Source of the DNA: Hymenobacter yonginensis
GTDB taxonomy: Bacteria > Bacteroidota > Bacteroidia > Cytophagales > Hymenobacteraceae
NCBI RefSeq assembly: GCF_027625995.1
Contig: NZ_CP115396.1
Coordinates: 186,001-250,000 of the forward strand
Length of the DNA: 64,000 nucleotides
Direction: 5' to 3'
Position numbers and translations under genes: made by a program
The notes under the pieces: model-generated
What the model saw: only the letters and a program-made list of their open reading frames with translations
Database searches by the model: none
What the model was told of the DNA's origin: nothing
Shown here: piece by piece, positions 35,334 to 54,890 of the stretch
Position numbering within the stretch: the first letter of the stretch is position 1
Layout of the letters: each line of letters starts with the position of its first letter

Positions 35334-35480
35334 AGCAATGGCAGTTGATTACGATGCCAAGTAAGCGAATTATTTTGGCAAATGCTAATTTTGTTAGTAG
35401 AAAATAATTGATGTTTTAGAGGTGAATAGCTAAATAATTTAGTTAGATATTATGTGTGGTGAAGCAGGTTGTAATGCCTT

Positions 35481-35643
35481 TAGAGACGCGTATTCGCGTC
35501 TTGTCGTTGCTGAGGTTGTTTACATGGATCGTTTGTAGTCATTCAGTAGCAAGGCGCGTGTATATGTGCCGAATTTGCTAAATCCGCTGGGGTTGCGTGG
35601 TGCCGGGTCGTCCAACGACGAGACGCGAATACGCGTCTCTACA
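35481..35643. repeat. REPIN-like element A (variant stem GAGACGCG)
   Basis: Left end TTAGAGACGCGTATTCGCGTC, then TCGTTGCTGAGGTTGTT (35504-35520). Right end CAACGACGAGACGCGAATACGCGTCTCTAC (35613-35642, in two pieces of palindrome). Same architecture as elements B-F but with CGCGTATTCGCG loops, a longer interior, and GTAG at only one end. Confidence 0.75.
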
Positions 35644-39059: not shown

Positions 39060-39106
39060 AGCGGTGAATCTTGGGGCGAGTGCGCCGAATGGACGAGAGC
39101 TAGAAA

Positions 39107-39246
39107 CTAGCTCCCCTCCTTGGAAAGGAGGGGCTGGGGGTGGTTGACACCGCCAGAACGAAGGATAGAACTAAAAGCTAGTTTTTAAAGGCCGTTCAAC
39201 GATTGTCAACCACCCCCAGTCCCTCCTTTCCAAGGAGGGGAGCTAG
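39107..39246. repeat. Palindromic element J inside the efflux operon
   Basis: 42-bp near-perfect arms (CTAGCTCCCCTCCTTGGAAA... and complement ending GGGGAGCTAG) between the adaptor and permease genes. Right inner part has GGCCGTTCAACGATTGTC, shared with the RAYT-linked elements. May modulate transcript continuity to the permease. Confidence 0.8.
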
Positions 39247-39260
39247 CTTTTAGCGTGTGC

Positions 39261-40511: not shown

Positions 40512-40619
40512 GATGTAGAGACGCAATATTTTGCGTCTCGTCGTTGCTGATGTTGTTACGTCAATCGTCTGGCAGTGCCGTTCGACGACGAGACGCAAAA
40601 TGTTGCGTCTCTACATCGT
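40512..40619. repeat. REPIN-like element B (GTAG-flanked GAGACGCAA palindromes)
   Basis: Left REP GTAGAGACGCAATATT-TTGCGTCTCGTCG; core TTGCTGATGTTGTTA (GCTGATGTTGTT at 40546-40557) and TGCCGTTCGACGACGAG; right REP ends GCGTCTCTACATC. GTAG tetranucleotides sit outside both palindromes. Located between the tolC-like and adaptor genes, 3 bp from the tolC-like stop. Confidence 0.88.
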
Positions 40620-42266: not shown

Positions 42267-42393
42267 AGTAGCGCGAACTTTGTAGTTCGCGTCTCGGCAC
42301 GATCAGGGCGGTGCGGGGCAATATCACGCGGCGCGCGGAAACACACGTAAGGCAACGGCGCGGAGACGCGAACTACAAAGTTCGCGCTACTAC
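42267..42393. repeat. Palindromic element G (stem GTAGCGCGAACTTTGTAGTTCGCG)
   Basis: Ends AGTAGCGCGAACTTTGTAGT... and complement ...GTTCGCGCTACTAC; the right end coincides with the TAG stop of pbpC (42390-42392). Interior lacks the GCTGATG/CGTTCAACG core. The GTAG next to each palindrome foot resembles the RAYT elements, so it could be a separate REP family. Also the tolC-like gene's upstream region. Confidence 0.75.
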
Positions 42394-44801
42394 TCTAGCT
42401 CCGTCACCGTCACCAGCACGTCGGTATTGCGGCCGTGGTCGTCGGCGCAGGAGATTTTGAGGGGGCCGGGCCGGGGTCGGAAAAACACCCGCTCGGTGGC
42501 CCGGGCCGTGCGCAAAAACTGGTCGTTCACGTACCAGTGCACCTGGCGCACTTCGTTGTCGGTGGTGCAGCTGAGCAGGAGCTGTTGCTGCTCGCGCCGG
42601 TTGAGCACGTACTCAGTGTTGGCGGTGGGTGAGGTAATGCTGGGGGCCAGTTCCGGACCGCCGCGCACCAGCTGGCACTGCGGGTTATGGGGCGGCAGCC
42701 GGCGGTACGGAATGCCCTGGGCTTCCTTATAGGCTGCCACCTCGGGCAGCAGGTTGGGGTACAGCTCGCGCCGGTAGCCGGCCGCCGGAGCGCAGGCCCG
42801 GCAGTAGGCAAACCCGCCATCGGCCGATACCAGCACCTCGCGCTGGTGCTGGCAGCGCTGCCCGCTGCTCACGTTGGGCAAGAAGTAGTCGATTACCTGA
42901 TGGGGGCAGTTTTCACCCGGCACCAGCCCGCTTTCGGTACACACCAGCCGGAAATCCAGCGCTGCCGGGGGCGCAAACCAGTCGTTGGGCGAGTTGTAGG
43001 CCAGGGCGTTGAAGAGGTCGAACAGCAGCGGCGTGGCCACGTCGGCCCCGGTGAGGGCGGGGCTGCCCTGGCCGCTGAAGTTGCCCACCCACACGCCGAT
43101 GGTGTATTGCCGGTTGTAGCCGATGCTCCAGGCGTCGCGGCGGCCGTAGCTGGTGCCGGTTTTCCAGGCTACTTTGGGCAGGCGCATGCTGCTGGCCGCA
43201 CCCAGCGGCAAATCGGGCCGGGTAAGCTGGCTGAGGATGTCGGTGGTGAGAAAGGCGGCGGATTCGGAGATGAGCTGGTTGCCGTTCTGTTGGAGGACCC
43301 CACCCCCCGGCCCCCTCCCCTCCGGGAGAGGGGGAGTCGAATGATTTCGTTCAACGTCTTCATCACGCTCCCCCTCTCCCGGAGGGGAGGGGGCTGGGGG
43401 GTGGGGTGCCCGGTAACGCAGCGGCGCGTAACGTCCCTCATCGGCCAGCGTCACATACAGATTTGTCAGTTCTTCCAGGCTGGCGCCACAGCCGCCCAAA
43501 ATGCTGCTCAAACCCAGCTTAGTGCGGTTGCGCGTGACGCTGTGGAAGCCGGCCTGGCGAAGCTTGTCGGTGAAGGCGGGTACGCCGAGTTGGTTGAGCA
43601 CGCGCACGGCCGGGATGTTGAGCGAGTAGGCCAGGGCGTGTTCCAGCGTTACTTCGCCGTTGCAGTGCTTGTCGAAGTTCTCGGGACGGTAGCCCTGGAA
43701 GTTGGTGGGCACATCGGGCAGCAGCAGCTTGGGCGTCACGAGGCCCTGGTCCATAGCCAGCGCGTACAGAAACGGCTTGAGCGTACTGCCCGGCGAGCGG
43801 ACGGCCACCACGCCGTCGTTCTGGCCCTGGCTGGCGAAGTCGCGGAAATCGGCCGAGCCCACGTAGGCTTCCACCTGCCGGGTGCGGTTATTCACCACCA
43901 GCACGGCCGCCTGCGTGATGCCCAGCTCGCGCAGGCGGCGCACGTAGCCCAGGGTCAGGTCTTCGGCCTTGCTTTGCTTGCTGCGCTGCAAACTGCTGCT
44001 GATAATGGCCGCGTGCGGAAACTGCCGCACCAGCCGCCGCGAGAGGTGCGGGGCCAGGGTGGGCGCGGGGTGGCGCTGCACGTCCAGGGGTTCCAGCAGG
44101 GCGTCGGCCACGTCCTGCGCCGGGAATAGCCCGGCCGCTCCGAAGCGCCGCAGCCACCGGTTCCGTTCCCGGAGCACGGCCGCGTTGTTCTTGCCCAGCA
44201 CCAGCCCCCGCGGCCGGTTCGGAATGATGGCCAAGGTCACGGTCTGGGCCAAAGAGAGGTAGTCGGGCGTTTGCTGGAAATAGAGCAGCGCGGCCGATTT
44301 CACGCCTTCCACGTTGCCGCCGTAAGGCACCAGGTTCAGGTACAGCTGCAAGATTTCGTCTTTGCTGTAGTGGGCTTCCAGCTGCACAGCCCGGGCCATT
44401 TCCAGCAGCTTGTTGGGCAACGTGCGCTCCTTGGGTTCCAGCAGCCGGGCCACCTGCATGGTGATGGTGCTGGCCCCGGTGGTGCGCCCCGTGCCAAACA
44501 GGTTGCGCCCGGCCGCCTGTACCAGGGCCACGGGGTTAACCCCAAAATGCCACCGAAACCACCGGTCCTCCTTCTCGATGATGGCCGCCCGCAGCACCGG
44601 CGTAATCTCGCGCAGCTCCGTCTTCATCCGCCACTTCTGAGTGGGGTTGAGGTAGGCGTGCAGCACCGAGCCGTCGACGGCCAGCACCAGGGGCGAGTAC
44701 TGCGGGGCCGGCGGCACCGGAAACGCCCAGTCCAGCCCCAGCAGAAGCAGTAGCAACAGGCCAAAGCCCGCCAGCAGACGGTAAAGGGGGCGGCGTTTCA
44801 T
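42390..44801 (-). CDS. pbpC: Penicillin-binding protein 1C with an in-frame palindrome insertion
   Basis: 803 residues. Glycosyltransferase domain (EKEDRWFRWHFGVNP, TGASTITMQVARLL), transpeptidase with SxxK in SPGSTLKPF and KTG in WKTGTSYG, and C-terminal BiPBP-type domain. PbpC polymerises peptidoglycan in the inner membrane and in proteobacteria is usually co-encoded with the alpha-2-macroglobulin YfhM, as here. Residues about 465-502 (43297-43407) encode HPPAPSPPGEGE... from a perfect palindrome of 111 bp, an in-frame insertion between APLRY and the conserved LISESAAFLTTDIL. Its start is 3 bp from a REPIN-like element, and its stop lies in element G. Confidence 0.92.
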   Translation of the reverse strand: MKRRPLYRLLAGFGLLLLLLLGLDWAFPVPPAPQYSPLVLAVDGSVLHAYLNPTQKWRMKTELREITPVLRAAIIEKEDRWFRWHFGVNPVALVQAAGRNLFGTGRTTGASTITMQVARLLEPKERTLPNKLLEMARAVQLEAHYSKDEILQLYLNLVPYGGNVEGVKSAALLYFQQTPDYLSLAQTVTLAIIPNRPRGLVLGKNNAAVLRERNRWLRRFGAAGLFPAQDVADALLEPLDVQRHPAPTLAPHLSRRLVRQFPHAAIISSSLQRSKQSKAEDLTLGYVRRLRELGITQAAVLVVNNRTRQVEAYVGSADFRDFASQGQNDGVVAVRSPGSTLKPFLYALAMDQGLVTPKLLLPDVPTNFQGYRPENFDKHCNGEVTLEHALAYSLNIPAVRVLNQLGVPAFTDKLRQAGFHSVTRNRTKLGLSSILGGCGASLEELTNLYVTLADEGRYAPLRYRAPHPPAPSPPGEGERDEDVERNHSTPPLPEGRGPGGGVLQQNGNQLISESAAFLTTDILSQLTRPDLPLGAASSMRLPKVAWKTGTSYGRRDAWSIGYNRQYTIGVWVGNFSGQGSPALTGADVATPLLFDLFNALAYNSPNDWFAPPAALDFRLVCTESGLVPGENCPHQVIDYFLPNVSSGQRCQHQREVLVSADGGFAYCRACAPAAGYRRELYPNLLPEVAAYKEAQGIPYRRLPPHNPQCQLVRGGPELAPSITSPTANTEYVLNRREQQQLLLSCTTDNEVRQVHWYVNDQFLRTARATERVFFRPRPGPLKISCADDHGRNTDVLVTVTELE
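43297..43407. repeat. 111-bp palindrome inserted in frame in pbpC
   Basis: 40-bp arms (43297-43336 and 43368-43407) with a single mismatch, rich in C/G (ACCCCACCCCCCGGCCCCCT...). The central 31 bp holds TTTCGTTCAACG, close to the CGTTCAACGA of the other elements. Length is exactly 37 codons, so the frame is kept. Confidence 0.85.
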
Positions 44802-44804
44802 GGG

Positions 44805-44938
44805 ATGTAGAGACGCAATATCTTGCGTCTCGTCGTTGCTGATGTTGTTATAAAGAGCAATGGGGTTATTCCCTAGCTTTAGAATCGGTTGGTTCGATGT
44901 CGTTCAATGACGAGACGCAAGATATTGCGTCTCTACAT
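44805..44938. repeat. REPIN-like element C, right flank of the RAYT gene
   Basis: GATGTAGAGACGCAATATC-TTGCGTCTCGTCG on the left, core GCTGATGTTGTT at 44838-44849 and CGTTCAATGACGAG, right end ATTGCGTCTCTACATC. Ends 3 bp before the RAYT stop, begins 4 bp from the pbpC start codon, so pbpC's ribosome-binding region lies in the element. Confidence 0.88.
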
Positions 44939-44941
44939 CCT

Positions 44942-45490
44942 TCAGCGGAACAAGCCGTCTGCTTTCTCATGGTCAGCCGACCACTGAGAAGGATTATTGC
45001 GAATGTATTCCCGCGCCTTCTGTAGCTCGACTTCGTTGCGTACCACCCGGTCAAAATACCCCTGCTGCCACATGAATTCCACGCCATTGCGCGTTGCCCA
45101 CGCCTTCACGCCTACTTTGAAGCCTCGCACGACAGCCGCCAGATTCTGGCTTTGTGGGCCGAACGTGGCAGCGGCTTCCGTATTCGTATCCGGTTTGTGG
45201 AAGAAGATGATGCCGTGTACATGGTCAGGCATCACGACAAAAGCGTCCGGTACTGCAAAAGCAAAGTGGTCCGGTATTTCCTGCCAACATGTCAAGGCCC
45301 GCTCTGCCAGAGGAGTGGGAGTCAATACTGCTGCTTTACCTATGGCTTGTCCAGCTTGTATCTCCCCAAAATACCGGCGTCGTTTATGCGTGCAGATAGT
45401 GACGAAATACGCACCGTTCTGGCTGTAATCGTATACATGCCAGCGGGTTGAAGCAATACGGTATTTATCCTGATACAGCCCGGAGTCCAT
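44942..45490 (-). CDS. REP-associated tyrosine transposase (RAYT), HUH/Y1 family
   Basis: 182 residues from the ATG at 45490 (MDSGLYQDKYRIASTRWHVYDYSQNGAYFVTICTHKRR); the frame is open further into element D but without family sequence. HUH motif MPDHVHGI has H90 and H92; catalytic tyrosine is Y145 in WQQGYFDRVVRNEVELQKAREYIRNNPSQW. Y1 enzymes nick single-stranded DNA at hairpin feet; RAYTs of E. coli act on REP hairpins next to GTAG. The gene is flanked by inverted elements C and D that have precisely this GTAG-plus-hairpin layout. Apparently intact, so possibly active. It separates the alpha-2-macroglobulin and pbpC genes. Confidence 0.93.
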   Translation of the reverse strand: MDSGLYQDKYRIASTRWHVYDYSQNGAYFVTICTHKRRRYFGEIQAGQAIGKAAVLTPTPLAERALTCWQEIPDHFAFAVPDAFVVMPDHVHGIIFFHKPDTNTEAAATFGPQSQNLAAVVRGFKVGVKAWATRNGVEFMWQQGYFDRVVRNEVELQKAREYIRNNPSQWSADHEKADGLFR

Positions 45491-45516
45491 AGGTGAGACA
45501 TAAAGCAATTGCAACG

Positions 45517-45617
45517 GTGTAGAGACGCAATATTTTGCGTCTCGTCGTTGAACGGCCCGGTGACGTGCTATACAAACAACATCAGCAACGACGAGACGCA
45601 AAATATTGCGTCTCTAC
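45517..45617. repeat. REPIN-like element D, left flank of the RAYT gene (inverted)
   Basis: GTGTAGAGACGCAATATT-TTGCGTCTCGTCG, then GTTGAACGGCCCGG and AACAACATCAGC (45575-45586), reverse complement of the B/C core order, and the right end ATTGCGTCTCTAC. Orientation is opposite to C. The stop codon of the upstream alpha-2-macroglobulin gene (45614-45616) is part of the element's terminal GTAG on the minus strand. Confidence 0.88.
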
Positions 45618-48600
45618 CGCACCCGTACCACGCCGGCTCCATTATAGCTGTGGTACTCGGCGTTGTACATAGCGTCAGCACTCACCGGGCCGAGCTTGAA
45701 GGTGCCTTTGCTCACGGCGCGGCAGAGGTAGTAGAACGACTTGGGCTGGGGGGTGACGGTGGTGAACAGGTTGATTCGGTCGTCGCGTACGTCGAGGTAG
45801 TCGGGTTGGGCGGCGTCGGTGGCCCAGGTGATGTCGCGCACGGCCCCGATACGTGGGTTTTCGATTTCCAGGCCGGCGGGGAGCAGGTCGGTGATGGCCA
45901 CGTTCTTCACTTCACCGGCGCTTTCGGCCGATTGGATGGTGATTTTCACGACCACCAAATCGTTCTGGCGGAAGCTGGTGCTGCCTACGGGTTGGCCGGT
46001 ACGGTTGAGGAACTGGCGGCGCACCTGCAGGTAGGCGTCTTCCTCACGCACTTGGCCGGTGGGCGAGATGCCCTCGGTTTCCCAGAAGTAGTAGAGGCTG
46101 CCTTTGCCGCTGGTGCGCAGGGCCAGCTGGCGGTTGGCCACGTTGCTTACCGTGAGGTCCTTGCCCGAGAAGTTACCGATGGCTTTGCCGTCGGCCAGCA
46201 GACTGGCTGTGACGGTGCTGCCGGCGTTTTTGCGGGCCAGCTTGCCCAGGGCCAGCAGCGCGAAGGCGCGTTCCTGGGTGCTGAGCCAGTTGGCCTGCTT
46301 CACCTGGCGGCTGAGCTGGCGGGCCAGCACGTTCACCTGGGCGTTGGCGGGGTCGGCGGCAAGCAGGGCGTTGAGCACCAGCGCCTCGTCGCGGATGGGG
46401 GAGGAGAAGGCGCCATCGAGCTGGCGGCCGGCTATGGACTGCACCCCGAAGCGGGTGGGCAGGGTTTCGCGGTAGCTGCGCTGGTTGCCGCTCAGGGCGA
46501 AGGCGCAGGCCAGCACCCAGCGCGAATCTTCGGGCAGCAGCTTGCGGTTGGCTTTGTAGTAGTTGAGGCCCACGGCATCGGGGCGGCCGGCCAGGGCCAG
46601 CACGTACAGCGAGTAAGCAATTTCCTTTTTGGCCAGCGTCACGGGCTGAATCACGCCGCCGGTCTGGATGATGTTGTAGGTGTCGGTTTCGCGCTTACGC
46701 ACCCGGGCCTGCAGGTAGCGGAGCACCCGGTCCAGCACGTTCTTGTTTACATCGAAGCCGGCTTGCTGGGCTTCCAGCAGGAAGTGGGCGGCGTAGGCCG
46801 TGGCCCACCAGTTGTCGTAGTCGCCGCCGGGCCAGTAGCTGAGGCTGCCGTTGTACATTTGCTGGGCTTCCACCTTGCGGATGGCTTCCTGCACGTGGTA
46901 GTTGGGGTTGAACAGGCCGGCTTTACCAGTTTTGCCGGTTTTCTGGCCCAGCGTGGCGGCTAGGTCGCCGTAGTAGAGCTGCGGGAAGGCGGCCGACACG
47001 GTTTGCTCCAGGCAGCCGTAGGGGTATTGCAGCAGGTAGCGCAGGTCCTTGGCAAACTCCGTCATCGGGGAGCGGCTCACCACCAGCTGGCTGCGCAGGG
47101 AGGCAGGCAGGAAGTCGGTGCGCAGGTTTAGCTGCTGGGCCGCGCCGCCCGCTACCACGCCCGCCCCCGTCCGCTTCTGCAGCGGCGAAGCGGGGCGGAT
47201 GGGCAGTTCGATGGTTTCGGTGAAGGCTTCCTTACTACCTGTTGTAGAGAAGATGATTTCCACCTTCGCGTTACCAATCTTGGGTTTTGCGCACAGGTAG
47301 AATACAACACGTTTTTCGCTGCCTGGCTGTAACAAGGCACTATAGGAGTCGGAATAGTCGAAGCTTTTCTGACCAACTTGAACTACACTCAAGGGCTCCT
47401 CCCGTGGATTCACCTTGATGATTACTGTACCCTTAATAGCTGCTCCCGTTGTATTCGTCAGCGTAACTGGCACGTCAATCGTGTCGCCGGGGCTGAGGAA
47501 GCGGGGGAGGGCCGTTGAAATAACCACCGGGTCGGCCACTTTCATGGTGTGTTCGGCCGAGCCGAAGGCGTCGCCTTTGTAGGCCACGGCCATGATGCGG
47601 ATGGCCCCGCTGAACTGCGGGATCTGCAGCTTGTAGCGCACCTTGCCGCTGGCGTCGGCGGTGAGTACGCCGCTCCATTTGGCCAGCAGGCGCACGCGGC
47701 GGTTAGGCACGGGCGTGGTGCGGCGCGAGAGGTCGTAGCCGTCGCCACCGGTGCTGCTGCTGCCCAGCTCGGGCAGCAGGAAGGGGTACACGTCGAAGGC
47801 CTGCACCTCCAGGGCGCGCTTCTGGTAGAAGTAGCCGTAGGGGTCGGGCGTGCGGTAGTCCTTCATCTGCAGAATACCCTCGTCCACCATAGCCAGCGTC
47901 ACCTGCGCGCCGGGGGCGGTGGTTACTTCAATGGTCTGGGCGGTCTGGGAGCGGCTTTGGGCGGGGGCGTTGACGGCGACTTGCAGGCGGGCGCCGGGCT
48001 TCTCCACCGTGAGGGGCACGAAGCCCCGGGCCACCGTGAGCGGCAGGCGGTTGTCCTTGATTTCGCGGATGGCGGTGGCCGTCACGTAGATGTTGGGCAC
48101 GTGGTTGCCCCGGATGGGCACGTCCACCTTGGCCGATTTTTCGTCGGTGGTCACGTAGAAGTGGTCGAGCACCCGGTCCCGCTCCACGGTCACGAGCACC
48201 CGGCCGGGGAAGGGCGTTTTCAGCAGCAGGTGGGCCACGTCGCCGGGCTGGTACTTAGGCTTGTCGGCCTCAATGGTCACCTCGCCCTCGTTGTTCACCT
48301 CGAAAGAGTTGCTCTGGGTGTCGCCGTAGCCGTAGGCGTACACGCGCCGGGCCACGTAGGTCACGGCCCCGGTGCCCGATACCCGGATTTCGTACTCGCC
48401 GGAGTAAGTGGGCGTGAAGTTCAGGCCGGCATCCTGGCCCGCGCCTTTCACCGACACCACGCGGTTCAGCACTACTTCCTCCCGCTTCTGCGAGTTGTAG
48501 ACATAGCGGCCGCCCTGGCGCTCAATCACCGTTTCCCAGAGCAGGCGCACCACCTGCACCCGGGCCTGGGCCGTGGTGGGCTGGCCGGCCGGCGTGAGGG

Positions 48601-51139
48601 CCGCCAGCTGCACGGCCAGCGGCTGACCGGTGCTCACCAGATCATCGGCGCTCCGGATGCCGAACAGTACCGGCTGGGTCTGCACCTCGAAGGTGGCCAG
48701 GCGGTTCACGGGGCGGCCGGTTTCATCGAATACCGTGGTGAAGGCCGCGCCTTCCAGCGTGCCCAGGTCGGTGTAGTCGGGTACCTGGTAGGTGGCGGTG
48801 CCGCGGCCGGCGGCGTCGGTGGTGCCTTCGCGGGTGGTTTTCTCGAACCGGTCGGAAATGGGCGTCGATTCCAGGTCGCCGTAGTTGCCGCGCCGCCGCT
48901 CCCCGCTGTTGATGGCGAAGGTGAACTGCTCGAAGCCTTTGGGGTTGAAGGCCTTTTCCTTCAGCGAAAACTCGACTTCAAACTTGCGGTCGGCGGCCGG
49001 GGGACCGAACAGGTTCTGGGCCGTAATCAGGGCCGAAACCGACTGGCTGGGCTTCACCACGGCGCGGTCGGCCTTCACCGTCACCTTCATGCGGTCCGGA
49101 ATAAACTCCTCCACCGACAGCTGGCGCGAGGTCAGCAGCACATCGTTGCCGGTCAGCACTTCCAGAGTATAAAGGCCGGTCATTACGGCCGGGGGCAGGA
49201 TGAAGCGGGCCTCGAAGGAGCCGGCCGCGTTCAGCGTTTTCTGCAGGCTGGCATACTCCTTGCCGGTGGGCAGCAGCAGCCGGATTTTTACCGGCAGCCC
49301 TTTGGGCGGGGCCTGCCAGGCGTCGGTGCGCAGTACGGTGTTGGTCTGGATGGTGTCGCCAGGGCGGTACAGGTCCCGGTCGCCGTAGAGGAAGGCCTGG
49401 TAGCGGGCGGCGTTGGTTTGCAGGCCGCCCACCTCGAAGCGGGAGGTTTCCACCCGGCTGCGGCTCAGGTCGAGGAAAGTGAAGTCGTTGCCCTGCTGGG
49501 CCATCACCATGCCCAGCCGGAAGCGGCCGTTGGCGGCCGTGCTGTCGAAGCGGGCCACGCCCTCGTGGTTGCTGAGGCCGGTGCCCATCACCTGGTTGTT
49601 GGTGCTGATGTAGCGCAGCTCCACGCCGGAAAGCGGCTTGGCGTTGCGGATGGAGTTGGCAAACACCAGCGTGCTACCACCTTTGCCCTGCTTCACAATC
49701 AGCCCGATGTCCGACACGGCCACCAGCTTGCTCACCTGCAGCCACTGCCGCTCGGTGTCCTGCACGCGTATCACGTACAGGCCCTTCAGCCCGCCCGAAA
49801 ACTCCAGGTCCTTCAGATTTAGGTTCAGCAGCCGCAGCCCCTGCGCCTTCGGCAGCCCCGACACGGTGTAGGTGCGCTCGGTGAGGACGTTGCCCAGGTT
49901 TTCCACGTCGTAGTACTGGAAGGAGCGGTCCACGTATTCGCCGCCGTCGCCTTCTTCCTCGCTGCTTTCCTCGCCGTCGTACTCGGGGTAGCCGTACTGG
50001 CTGCCGCCGCGCAGCAGCTGCTGAATGTTGTTGGCGTACACCTTGGCAATGGTCACCTTCACCTGATTCACCTCGTTGATGCGCACGCCCAGGTTGCGCG
50101 AGCCCAGGGCATCGAGGTACATGGCCTTCTCGGCGCTGCCGAAGCTGATGGTGGGCCGCTCGTCGGAGAAGCTCACCGACTGCGTCACGCCCTCCCCGAG
50201 CATCCCGCCCAGCGCCCCGCGCAGGCCCTGGTTCACGCCAATCTGGTAGGTGCGGCCCACCTCGAAGCCGCCCTTCAGCCGCACGCCGTTTTCCGTTTCC
50301 TCCACCTCGTAGGCCACCTGCGGCGACACGGTGAGGTAGCTCTGCAAATCGGTAGCCGTGACGGGCTGGTTGGTGGTGATGAGCACCATCGGGTCGGCGT
50401 TTTTCAGCGAGCCTTCGATGGTGGTTACCTGCAGGGCCTCGGGGTCGGGCACCGTTACCTGGGTTTCGTAGTCGGCGGTGCTGGGCTGGTCGCTGCCCAC
50501 GGCGTGCAGGCCCTGGGCCAGCGCCACCGTGAGCGGCGTGCCGGGGCGCACCTGCTGGTTGAGGCGCACGCGCACCACTTCGCCGGGCTCCCCGCTGACC
50601 TCGAAGGCCACGGGCTGGCCGTCCTGCGTCACGCGCAGCAGGGGCTTCACGTCGGCGGGCTTCACGGCATAGTTGAAGGGCAGTTCCACGCGCATCTCGG
50701 CGGTGCCGGCCGCCCGGCTAGAGCGGCCCCAGAACGCCTGCGGCTCCTGCAGCTCCAGGTAGGGCGTGTGGAATTTCTGGCGGTTCTCGGGCAGCTCGGC
50801 GTTGCGCTTGCCCTCCGGCAACGCCTCCTTGCGCAGCGTGGCCGTGAAGTTGGTGCTGGGCTTAAACGGCGTGCTGGGCGAGAAAATCAGCTCCCGGTCC
50901 GACGTCCACTTGAACTTGCCGCGCACGGCCGGCTCGAAGCTCACCACCTGCACCGTATCCCAGCGGTCCTGCAGCTCAGGCGTCACCACGGCATCGGCAA
51001 ACTGGAATACGAGGTTCTGGTACGGGTCAATTTCCTCGCCGTTGGGGTCTTGTCCACCGTCGGAACCAGACTTGGAGCAGGCGCACAGCACCGCCAGCAA
51101 CACCAGCAGCGGCAGGCGGGAAAAGGAGCGAAACAGCAT
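45614..51139 (-). CDS. Alpha-2-macroglobulin family lipoprotein (YfhM-like)
   Basis: 1841 residues. Lipobox LCAC (Cys21) puts it on a membrane, probably periplasmic face. MG-type beta domains fill the middle (e.g. YRPGDTIQTNTVLRTDAW, VTVERDRVLDHFYV). The thioester motif is intact: YPYGCLEQT with Cys1376-Leu-Glu-Gln1379. Bacterial homologues trap proteases invading through the envelope, working with PBP1C on repair. Here pbpC is downstream on the same strand, with the RAYT unit between. The TAG stop is supplied within element D. Upstream gene-poor DNA begins at 51140. Confidence 0.92.
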   Translation of the reverse strand: MLFRSFSRLPLLVLLAVLCACSKSGSDGGQDPNGEEIDPYQNLVFQFADAVVTPELQDRWDTVQVVSFEPAVRGKFKWTSDRELIFSPSTPFKPSTNFTATLRKEALPEGKRNAELPENRQKFHTPYLELQEPQAFWGRSSRAAGTAEMRVELPFNYAVKPADVKPLLRVTQDGQPVAFEVSGEPGEVVRVRLNQQVRPGTPLTVALAQGLHAVGSDQPSTADYETQVTVPDPEALQVTTIEGSLKNADPMVLITTNQPVTATDLQSYLTVSPQVAYEVEETENGVRLKGGFEVGRTYQIGVNQGLRGALGGMLGEGVTQSVSFSDERPTISFGSAEKAMYLDALGSRNLGVRINEVNQVKVTIAKVYANNIQQLLRGGSQYGYPEYDGEESSEEEGDGGEYVDRSFQYYDVENLGNVLTERTYTVSGLPKAQGLRLLNLNLKDLEFSGGLKGLYVIRVQDTERQWLQVSKLVAVSDIGLIVKQGKGGSTLVFANSIRNAKPLSGVELRYISTNNQVMGTGLSNHEGVARFDSTAANGRFRLGMVMAQQGNDFTFLDLSRSRVETSRFEVGGLQTNAARYQAFLYGDRDLYRPGDTIQTNTVLRTDAWQAPPKGLPVKIRLLLPTGKEYASLQKTLNAAGSFEARFILPPAVMTGLYTLEVLTGNDVLLTSRQLSVEEFIPDRMKVTVKADRAVVKPSQSVSALITAQNLFGPPAADRKFEVEFSLKEKAFNPKGFEQFTFAINSGERRRGNYGDLESTPISDRFEKTTREGTTDAAGRGTATYQVPDYTDLGTLEGAAFTTVFDETGRPVNRLATFEVQTQPVLFGIRSADDLVSTGQPLAVQLAALTPAGQPTTAQARVQVVRLLWETVIERQGGRYVYNSQKREEVVLNRVVSVKGAGQDAGLNFTPTYSGEYEIRVSGTGAVTYVARRVYAYGYGDTQSNSFEVNNEGEVTIEADKPKYQPGDVAHLLLKTPFPGRVLVTVERDRVLDHFYVTTDEKSAKVDVPIRGNHVPNIYVTATAIREIKDNRLPLTVARGFVPLTVEKPGARLQVAVNAPAQSRSQTAQTIEVTTAPGAQVTLAMVDEGILQMKDYRTPDPYGYFYQKRALEVQAFDVYPFLLPELGSSSTGGDGYDLSRRTTPVPNRRVRLLAKWSGVLTADASGKVRYKLQIPQFSGAIRIMAVAYKGDAFGSAEHTMKVADPVVISTALPRFLSPGDTIDVPVTLTNTTGAAIKGTVIIKVNPREEPLSVVQVGQKSFDYSDSYSALLQPGSEKRVVFYLCAKPKIGNAKVEIIFSTTGSKEAFTETIELPIRPASPLQKRTGAGVVAGGAAQQLNLRTDFLPASLRSQLVVSRSPMTEFAKDLRYLLQYPYGCLEQTVSAAFPQLYYGDLAATLGQKTGKTGKAGLFNPNYHVQEAIRKVEAQQMYNGSLSYWPGGDYDNWWATAYAAHFLLEAQQAGFDVNKNVLDRVLRYLQARVRKRETDTYNIIQTGGVIQPVTLAKKEIAYSLYVLALAGRPDAVGLNYYKANRKLLPEDSRWVLACAFALSGNQRSYRETLPTRFGVQSIAGRQLDGAFSSPIRDEALVLNALLAADPANAQVNVLARQLSRQVKQANWLSTQERAFALLALGKLARKNAGSTVTASLLADGKAIGNFSGKDLTVSNVANRQLALRTSGKGSLYYFWETEGISPTGQVREEDAYLQVRRQFLNRTGQPVGSTSFRQNDLVVVKITIQSAESAGEVKNVAITDLLPAGLEIENPRIGAVRDITWATDAAQPDYLDVRDDRINLFTTVTPQPKSFYYLCRAVSKGTFKLGPVSADAMYNAEYHSYNGAGVVRVR

Positions 51140-53380: not shown

Positions 53381-53485
53381 GGTGTAGAGACGCAATATTT
53401 TGCGTCTCGTAGTTGCTGATGTTGTTTAGAATGTGCGGTTCCGGGCCGTTCAACGACGAGACGCAAAATGTTGCGTCTCTACACC
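53381..53485. repeat. REPIN-like element E
   Basis: GTGTAGAGACGCAATATTT-TGCGTCTCGT, core GCTGATGTTGTT (53415-53426) and CGGGCCGTTCAACGACGAG, right end TTGCGTCTCTACACC. Sits upstream of the threonine synthase gene. Confidence 0.88.
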
Positions 53486-54786: not shown

Positions 54787-54890
54787 GGTGTAGAGACGCA
54801 ATAGTTGGAGTCTCGTCGTGGCTGATGTTGGGCTGTCTGAGCGAACCTAACGGCGCAGACGACGAGACACGTAGGGTCGCGTCTCTACAA
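54787..54890. repeat. REPIN-like element F (degenerate)
   Basis: GTGTAGAGACGCAATAGTTG then GCTGATGTTG, interior CTAACGGCGCAGACGACGAGAC and right end GCGTCTCTAC. Mismatches in the palindromes suggest an old copy. Confidence 0.75.

Follow-up and report, generated by a model that had tools for sequence, protein, structure and literature searches.

What is the small transposase gene that lies between two inverted hairpin elements in Hymenobacter yonginensis, and how is it related to the similar elements dispersed around it? The stretch analysed, called here the window, comprises 64,000 nucleotides, and all positions given for it count from its first letter. We consider it very likely that the locus is a REPtron, in which an inherited RAYT gene is accompanied by two cognate REPINs and acts in trans on a population of dispersed REPINs. 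The unit seems to represent a repeat-spreading system of a known type, here in a lineage that has received little study.

The RAYT gene and its hairpin elements

The features used in the analysis are as follows.

44942..45490, minus strand: RAYT (TnpAREP-like HUH/Y1 transposase), an intact ORF of 182 aa from ATG
44807..44936, plus strand: REPIN C, with REPs at 44807-44831 (+) and 44912-44936 (-), GTAG feet outward and an 80-nt spacer; downstream of the RAYT stop
45519..45617, minus strand: REPIN D, with REPs at 45519-45543 (+) and 45593-45617 (-) and a 49-nt spacer; lies upstream of the RAYT and is inverted with respect to C
40515..40614, plus strand: REPIN B, dispersed, of the RAYT's own stem class
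53384..53482, plus strand: REPIN E, dispersed, of the RAYT's own stem class
54790..54888, plus strand: REPIN F, dispersed, decayed
35480..35642, plus strand: REPIN A, which has TTAG instead of GTAG as its left foot and belongs to the 12-nt GTATTC class, a stem class other than that of the RAYT
42390..44801, minus strand: pbpC-like gene (penicillin-binding protein 1C; Pfam Transgly, Transpeptidase, BiPBP_C), which marks the conserved RAYT locus
45614..51139, minus strand: bacterial alpha-2-macroglobulin (A2M) gene (Pfam), on the other side of the RAYT

The protein carries an HUH motif (H90/H92) together with the single Tyr of the Y1 transposase fold, and its top fold match is E. coli TnpAREP (PDB 4er8); a single-sequence search of PDB gave one weak, unrelated match. 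The first-pass annotation had correctly recognised an intact RAYT ORF with this HUH motif between C and D. It had also assigned the tyrosine to Y145, which does not hold. Across two alignments, F replaces it in 8 of 28 and in 16 of 51 proteins, whereas Y162 is invariant in both (28/28 and 51/51), as are H90 and H92 in the set of 51. Y162 also aligns with the tyrosine of the TnpAREP motif YIYINP. Y145 was therefore rejected as nucleophile, and the catalytic tyrosine is probably Y162. W141-Q142 and R151 are the counterparts of TnpAREP W94, Q95 and R104. The annotation model NCBIfam NF047646 scores 60.9 bits, below its curated cut-off of 80, and the IS200/IS605 model NF033573 scores 17.7 bits against a cut-off of 55. 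Active-site residues are invariant across the aligned, stop-free relatives; stops are present in some members of the family (L038, L041, L051 and L257).

In both C and D, two GAGACGCAA-nnnn-TTGCGTCTC palindromes stand in inverted order, each with GTAG at its outer foot, so that the gene has inverted GTAG-foot REPs on both flanks. These REPs are perfect 22-nt hairpins. The anatomy given in the first-pass annotation stands, with exact GTAG-to-CTAC limits at 44807-44936 and 45519-45617, as does the mutual inversion of the two elements, visible in their inner ends (GTTGCTGATGTTGTT in C, GTTGAACGGCC in D). D has GTCGTTGCTGATGTTG inside one end and GTCGTTGAACG inside the other, and C carries GTCATTGAACG; since the two ends of an element differ inside, the element has a direction. 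Each folds as a single long structure in single-stranded form, 44803-44940 (C) at -44.2 kcal/mol (z -11.8) and 45513-45621 (D) at -41.1 kcal/mol (z -10.9). With up to three mismatches allowed, GTAGAGACGCAANNNNTTGCGTCTC has 17 matches in the window, corresponding to nine hairpins, eight of which match on both strands; 100 dinucleotide shuffles of the window give no match. No REP lies inside the window's own RAYT gene.

Four further copies had been proposed, at 35481, 40512, 53381 and 54787. Those at 40512 and 53381 are indeed of the RAYT's stem class; the one at 35481 belongs to the GTATTC class with its TTAG left foot and the one at 54787 is decayed. A second type of GTAG REPIN, an inverted pair of GTAGCGCGAACTTTGTAGTTCGCG, is present at 42267-42391. 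The same hairpin flanks a different RAYT clade at L087 (G054) and L276 (G044).

Inheritance of the locus

Comparisons were made across 120 Hymenobacter genomes (G numbers), the nearest to the window being G001, with 24% of sampled 31-mers in common. Both pbpC and A2M flank the RAYT in G001, G023, G052 and G006. Within 1.5-2 kb of the 43 fetched RAYT loci, both neighbours are found at 10, one at 5 and neither at 28. The RAYT therefore adjoins at least one of them at 15 of the 43 loci, at RAYT identities as low as 49%, and this persistence in distant species argues that it is inherited in place and is not a moving cassette.

A different explanation is that the REPIN-RAYT-REPIN block is an IS-like transposon which moves as a unit. 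The terminal inverted repeats on both flanks of the gene would suit such an element, as would the 28 loci with neither neighbour. We nevertheless regard this as highly improbable. Apart from the shared locus, matches to the window RAYT (P0001) are single in 41 of the 51 genomes that have one, which is not the behaviour of a self-mobile multicopy gene of the IS200/IS605 kind. In the genomes with two fetched members of the family (G018, G021, G067, G068, G106 and G114), the two differ in class or clade in all six cases, and no identical cassettes occur at different loci of one genome among the fetched loci.

The orientation of the gene can change within the locus. At L042 (G009) and L044 (G100) it is turned round with respect to pbpC and A2M, while in their close relative L049 (G008) it has the usual direction relative to A2M. 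Such an inversion is what recombination between the inverted flanking REPINs would produce. The neighbouring pbpC gene also contains, in an otherwise intact ORF, a palindromic insert of another repeat family (window 43297-43407); this is absent in G001, and G023 and G052 have another palindromic sequence at the site.

Repeat copy number, stem class and turnover in Hymenobacter

G001 has 92 matches of GTAGAGACGCAAN{1,8}TTGCGTCTC (reversed control 0) and one P0001-like match. A wider pattern, GTAGAGACGCN{3,12}GCGTCTC, is found in 111 of the 120 genomes (controls 0), and relatives of P0001 at E<=1e-3 in 51. Genomes were counted as RAYT+ if they had a relative at 41% identity or above, which gave 36; among them are G018, G062 and G106, whose listed match has a stop, and G066 and G116, which have flanking hairpins of another type. 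The remaining 15 with matches (33% or less, except a 50-residue fragment at 37%) were placed with the RAYT- genomes. At least 20 REP copies are present in 35 of 36 RAYT+ genomes and in 22 of 84 RAYT- genomes (Fisher p 4e-14, uncorrected for species phylogeny), with medians of 54.5 and 8 copies. Copy number thus tracks the RAYT, a relation that the first-pass annotation had proposed to test.

The element is, on average, far from equally abundant without the gene, yet 13 of the 84 RAYT- genomes keep at least 40 copies, and these speak against a strict dependence of the REPs on the RAYT. In all 13, the pbpC-A2M interval contains no RAYT detectable by tblastn or by a profile that found its positive controls, and in 12 of them it contains no strict REP. 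The simplest reading is that the whole cassette has been lost and the dispersed repeats survive. E. coli genomes without RAYT are reported also to retain REPINs, in lower number (PMC8049555). Loop cohesion was considered as a sign of activity. By eye, the TATT loop accounts for 62 of 92 copies in G001 and, in the RAYT-less G064, G092 and G014, for 23 of 41, 33 of 57 and 22 of 45, respectively. The direction fits but, with one RAYT+ genome only, this indicator was dropped.

The repeats also match the RAYT in type. Strict REPs lie within 400 nt of the gene on both sides at 35 of the 43 fetched loci, on one side at 1 and on neither at 7; the window RAYT has them on both sides, which brings the total to 36 of 44. 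The GAGACGC REP occurs at none of 30 loci of other RAYT types. Other Hymenobacter RAYT types (L267, L268, L269, L274, L275, L074, L075, L079, L080 and L086) have their own tagged hairpins nearby, namely GTAGGAACGCGCC, GTAGGGGCGCG, GTAGCGCGGACT, GTAGCGCGCAGC, GTGGCTTTCGGAGT and GTAGnACTCACTCGGC.

Four stem classes were defined over 37 labelled rows: A (AAnnnnTT), B (GACACTTC), B2 (GACCCWTC) and C (12-nt). On the RAYT tree (37 labelled of 44 rows), the four classes require three changes, the minimum possible, and none of 500 shuffles was as low for any of the four. Linkage alone could give this congruence, and classes were therefore also counted genome-wide, A as AANNNNTT, B as exact GACACTTC and C as ATANTT only, leaving out B2 and other 12-nt loops. 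At least 10 copies of the class are found in 9 of 9 genomes with a class A RAYT against 5 of 23 of another labelled class; for B the figures are 8 of 10 against 4 of 22, and for C 10 of 12 against 6 of 20. When classes were permuted among the 32 labelled genomes, none of 10,000 permutations reached the observed score, a procedure that ignores species kinship. The agreement is not complete: the commonest of classes A, B and C differs from the resident RAYT class in 6 of 27 genomes. With repeat class as well as copy number following the RAYT over 120 genomes, the REPIN-RAYT unit first proposed for the window is supported.

G013 has 59 class A repeats and, among its matches, only a class B RAYT; either an A-class RAYT has been lost or there is cross-mobilisation. 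Hairpins of the GACACTTC class also occur within Hymenobacter RAYT coding sequences (L058 at 1813, G013 at C1:1516428, L121 and L127). They match the flanking class, and the copies in L121 and L127 have mismatches.

How old are the dispersed copies? The four dispersed window elements were compared with G001, G023 and G052; 10 of 12 comparisons could be placed, and a REPIN, in some cases decayed, is present at the same site in all 10. The window's dispersed copies are therefore old insertions, and the view of them as progeny of an active or recently active unit finds no support in these comparisons. The REPIN B site is filled in G001 and G052 and holds a GACACTTC-class REPIN in G023. That of REPIN E is filled in G001 and G052 and decayed in G023, with the element inverted in G001 and G023. 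At the REPIN F site, G001 has REPs of the GACACTTC class and G052 has AATACTTT together with GAAGTATC; the site could not be placed in G023. At another intergenic site (39099-39254), each of the window, G001, G023 and G052 has a different palindromic element, that of G023 being a GTAGAGACGC-type REPIN.

Comparison of the relatives with each other shows turnover at other sites. Of 15 REPIN pairs in 538 kb of G001, 11 could be assigned a position in G023, and for 6 of these 11 the G023 gap contains no REP at up to two substitutions. Three of the six gaps are tight intergenic spaces (63-118 nt, against 141-231 nt) and three are of 1.3-2.0 kb. The other comparisons, which weigh against the REPtron reading, give few REP-less gaps: 1 of 8 from G001 to G052, 1 of 6 from G023 to G001 and 1 of 6 from G052 to G001. 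No clean empty site with readable junctions was found in 538 kb of G001, 518 kb of G023 and 246 kb of G052; the spacers have diverged, which makes the junctions unreadable. Five apparent empty sites were discarded because they arose from two solo matches of 22-24 nt with the same length between genomes, and a sixth (a G023 pair against G001) because REPs were found in that G001 gap.

The limits of the unit can be seen in a set of 128 distinct paired elements that includes orthologous copies. Complementarity continues beyond GTAG in excess of expectation at positions -1 (87 observed, 66.9 expected), -2 (56, 35.6), -3 (74, 56.9) and -4 (48, 37.0) and is near expectation from -5 onward. Since the excess stops after -4, the REPIN has defined edges. 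Spacer lengths in this set peak at 48-50 nt.

These observations bear on two further explanations. In the first, the repeats are kept for a host role (protection of mRNA 3' ends, attenuation or nucleoid binding), the RAYT is a bystander or regulator, and spread is mainly by descent and gene conversion. Sites common to relatives, with class switching and inversion in place, agree with this, and so does the persistence of REP populations in the 13 RAYT-less genomes. A host role alone does not predict that the genome-wide class should be that of the resident RAYT or that copy number should rise with the RAYT, and no rho-independent terminator-like site with a T tract is present in 44700-45800. 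We think it unlikely as a sufficient account; it overlaps with the preferred reading, since a host role is compatible with rare spread driven by the RAYT. The second, in which the association goes back solely to long-standing linkage and common ancestry, with a RAYT that is no longer active, seems to us less likely still. The associations were computed without phylogenetic correction and some family members have stops, as this would allow. Against it are the invariant active-site residues of the stop-free relatives, the 6 of 11 placeable G001 REPINs with no REP at the G023 place, and G021, which has two RAYT classes and holds both repeat classes (A 11, B 47).

Possible mechanism and relation to other RAYT systems

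For the preferred reading, a REPtron acting in trans, we infer the mode of action by analogy, and this covers binding, cutting, REPIN movement, its rarity and the bases of specificity. The substrate would be single-stranded DNA with GTAGAGACGCAA hairpins. As in E. coli TnpAREP, the RAYT would bind these through the GTAG foot and the GAGAC base of the stem, and Y162 would cut beside the hairpin. The REPIN of about 100 nt might then, rarely, be copied or moved to another intergenic site. Each lineage would owe its specificity to hairpin length (20 or 22 nt) and to the inner stem pair, which at stem position 8 is A-T or G-C. In its described features, the E. coli REPtron (4er8, PMC8266576) has the same HUH/Y1 fold and Tyr motif, the W-Q and R counterparts, inverted GTAG REPs adjoining the gene and dispersed REPINs. 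E. coli REPs have a bulged stem while those of Hymenobacter are perfect palindromes and, unlike the window RAYT, the group 2 proteins of E. coli are extended at the C terminus by a segment which contacts the last GTAG bases (PMC8266576).

The head of the hairpin, GTAGAGAC (GTAG plus the base of the stem), is conserved well beyond Hymenobacter. Among the best 80 of 562 confirmed RAYT loci, hairpins starting with GTAGAGAC lie in the 400-nt flank or inside the RAYT gene at 64, in at least nine named phyla, several of which rest on single metagenome contigs; the control gave 1 of 148 windows. With a looser pattern, a hairpin of this type lies inside the RAYT gene at 32 of the same 80 loci, one of which (L158) has a stop. 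Repeat copies are present in 13 of 14 genomes tested, among them Mucilaginibacter, Spirosoma, Rudanella and Flavobacterium. A Pedobacter genome has none, a Bacteroides bin has four, all within 400 nt of one contig, and a cyanobacterium has 16, with one control match. We tentatively propose, with a little less than even confidence, that this RAYT clade reads GTAGAGAC as an eight-base address which has stayed the same in at least nine named phyla. Loop length and the inner stem pair would act as a second lock, one that changes fast and pairs RAYT and repeat anew, and a gene carrying the repeat might be cut or regulated by its own product.

Judged by its motifs, the window RAYT may belong to either of two published TnpAREP subclasses (PMC6006769). 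Subclass 2.4 (RAYT group 4) is described from Cyanobacteria and Bacteroidetes with WQ and YIxNNP, which WQ and YIRNNP of the window RAYT match; it has long and double-foot GTAG REPs and also REPs inside RAYT genes, as found here in relatives. It differs in its HUH motif (NH[IFV]H against DHVH), in HUH-Y distance (published median 88 against 70) and in the bottom of the stem (three G-C pairs against GAGAC). The motifs given for subclass 2.7, [ND]HVH, WQ and YI[LR][NQ]NP, agree with DHVH, WQ and YIRNNP; D and R replace E100/H101 in both and the REPs are long, canonical and of the GTAG type, although the published length is 213 aa against 182 aa. The motifs fit 2.7 better. REPs inside the gene are, in the published description, a mark of 2.4 and of some of 2.8, and because those in relatives point to 2.4 we leave the assignment between 2.4 and 2.7.

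RAYTs with GTAG REPs have already been placed in Bacteroidetes (PMC6006769). GTAG repeats have been reported for Proteobacteria, Cyanobacteria, Chloroflexi and the PVC group, Bacteroidetes being unnamed in that part of the source (PMC3733652), and the RAYT-REP pairs given as biochemically tested are from E. coli, Stenotrophomonas and Marinomonas (PMC8266576). A literature search pairing Hymenobacter with 'repetitive extragenic palindromic' found nothing, figures and supplements being outside the search. Among publications containing GTAGAGACGC, no title concerns REPs, and the sequence may be in print in figures or supplements. Among the matches listed for RAYT with Bacteroidetes, for the cyanobacterial-type stem and for REPIN with transposase, there is no further work on the Hymenobacter system. 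The novelty is modest; what is useful is the conservation of the eight-base head, the matching of classes and the orphan REP populations. Several stem classes with RAYT clades to match occur in Hymenobacter, together with genomes that have kept repeats but no RAYT and others that have two RAYT classes, so that two questions become testable: which bases determine specificity, and what happens to a REPIN population after loss of its RAYT.

A close parallel in population behaviour is with the REPINs of Pseudomonas and E. coli as described in PMC3116915 and PMC8049555. There too, an inverted REP pair is the unit, and copies are more numerous in RAYT+ genomes and persist in RAYT- genomes; the RAYT is single-copy and vertically inherited, as that of Hymenobacter appears to be. 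The Hymenobacter REPs differ from them in sequence and fall into several stem classes and, unlike the Pseudomonas and E. coli REPINs, a site common to relatives can hold different classes.
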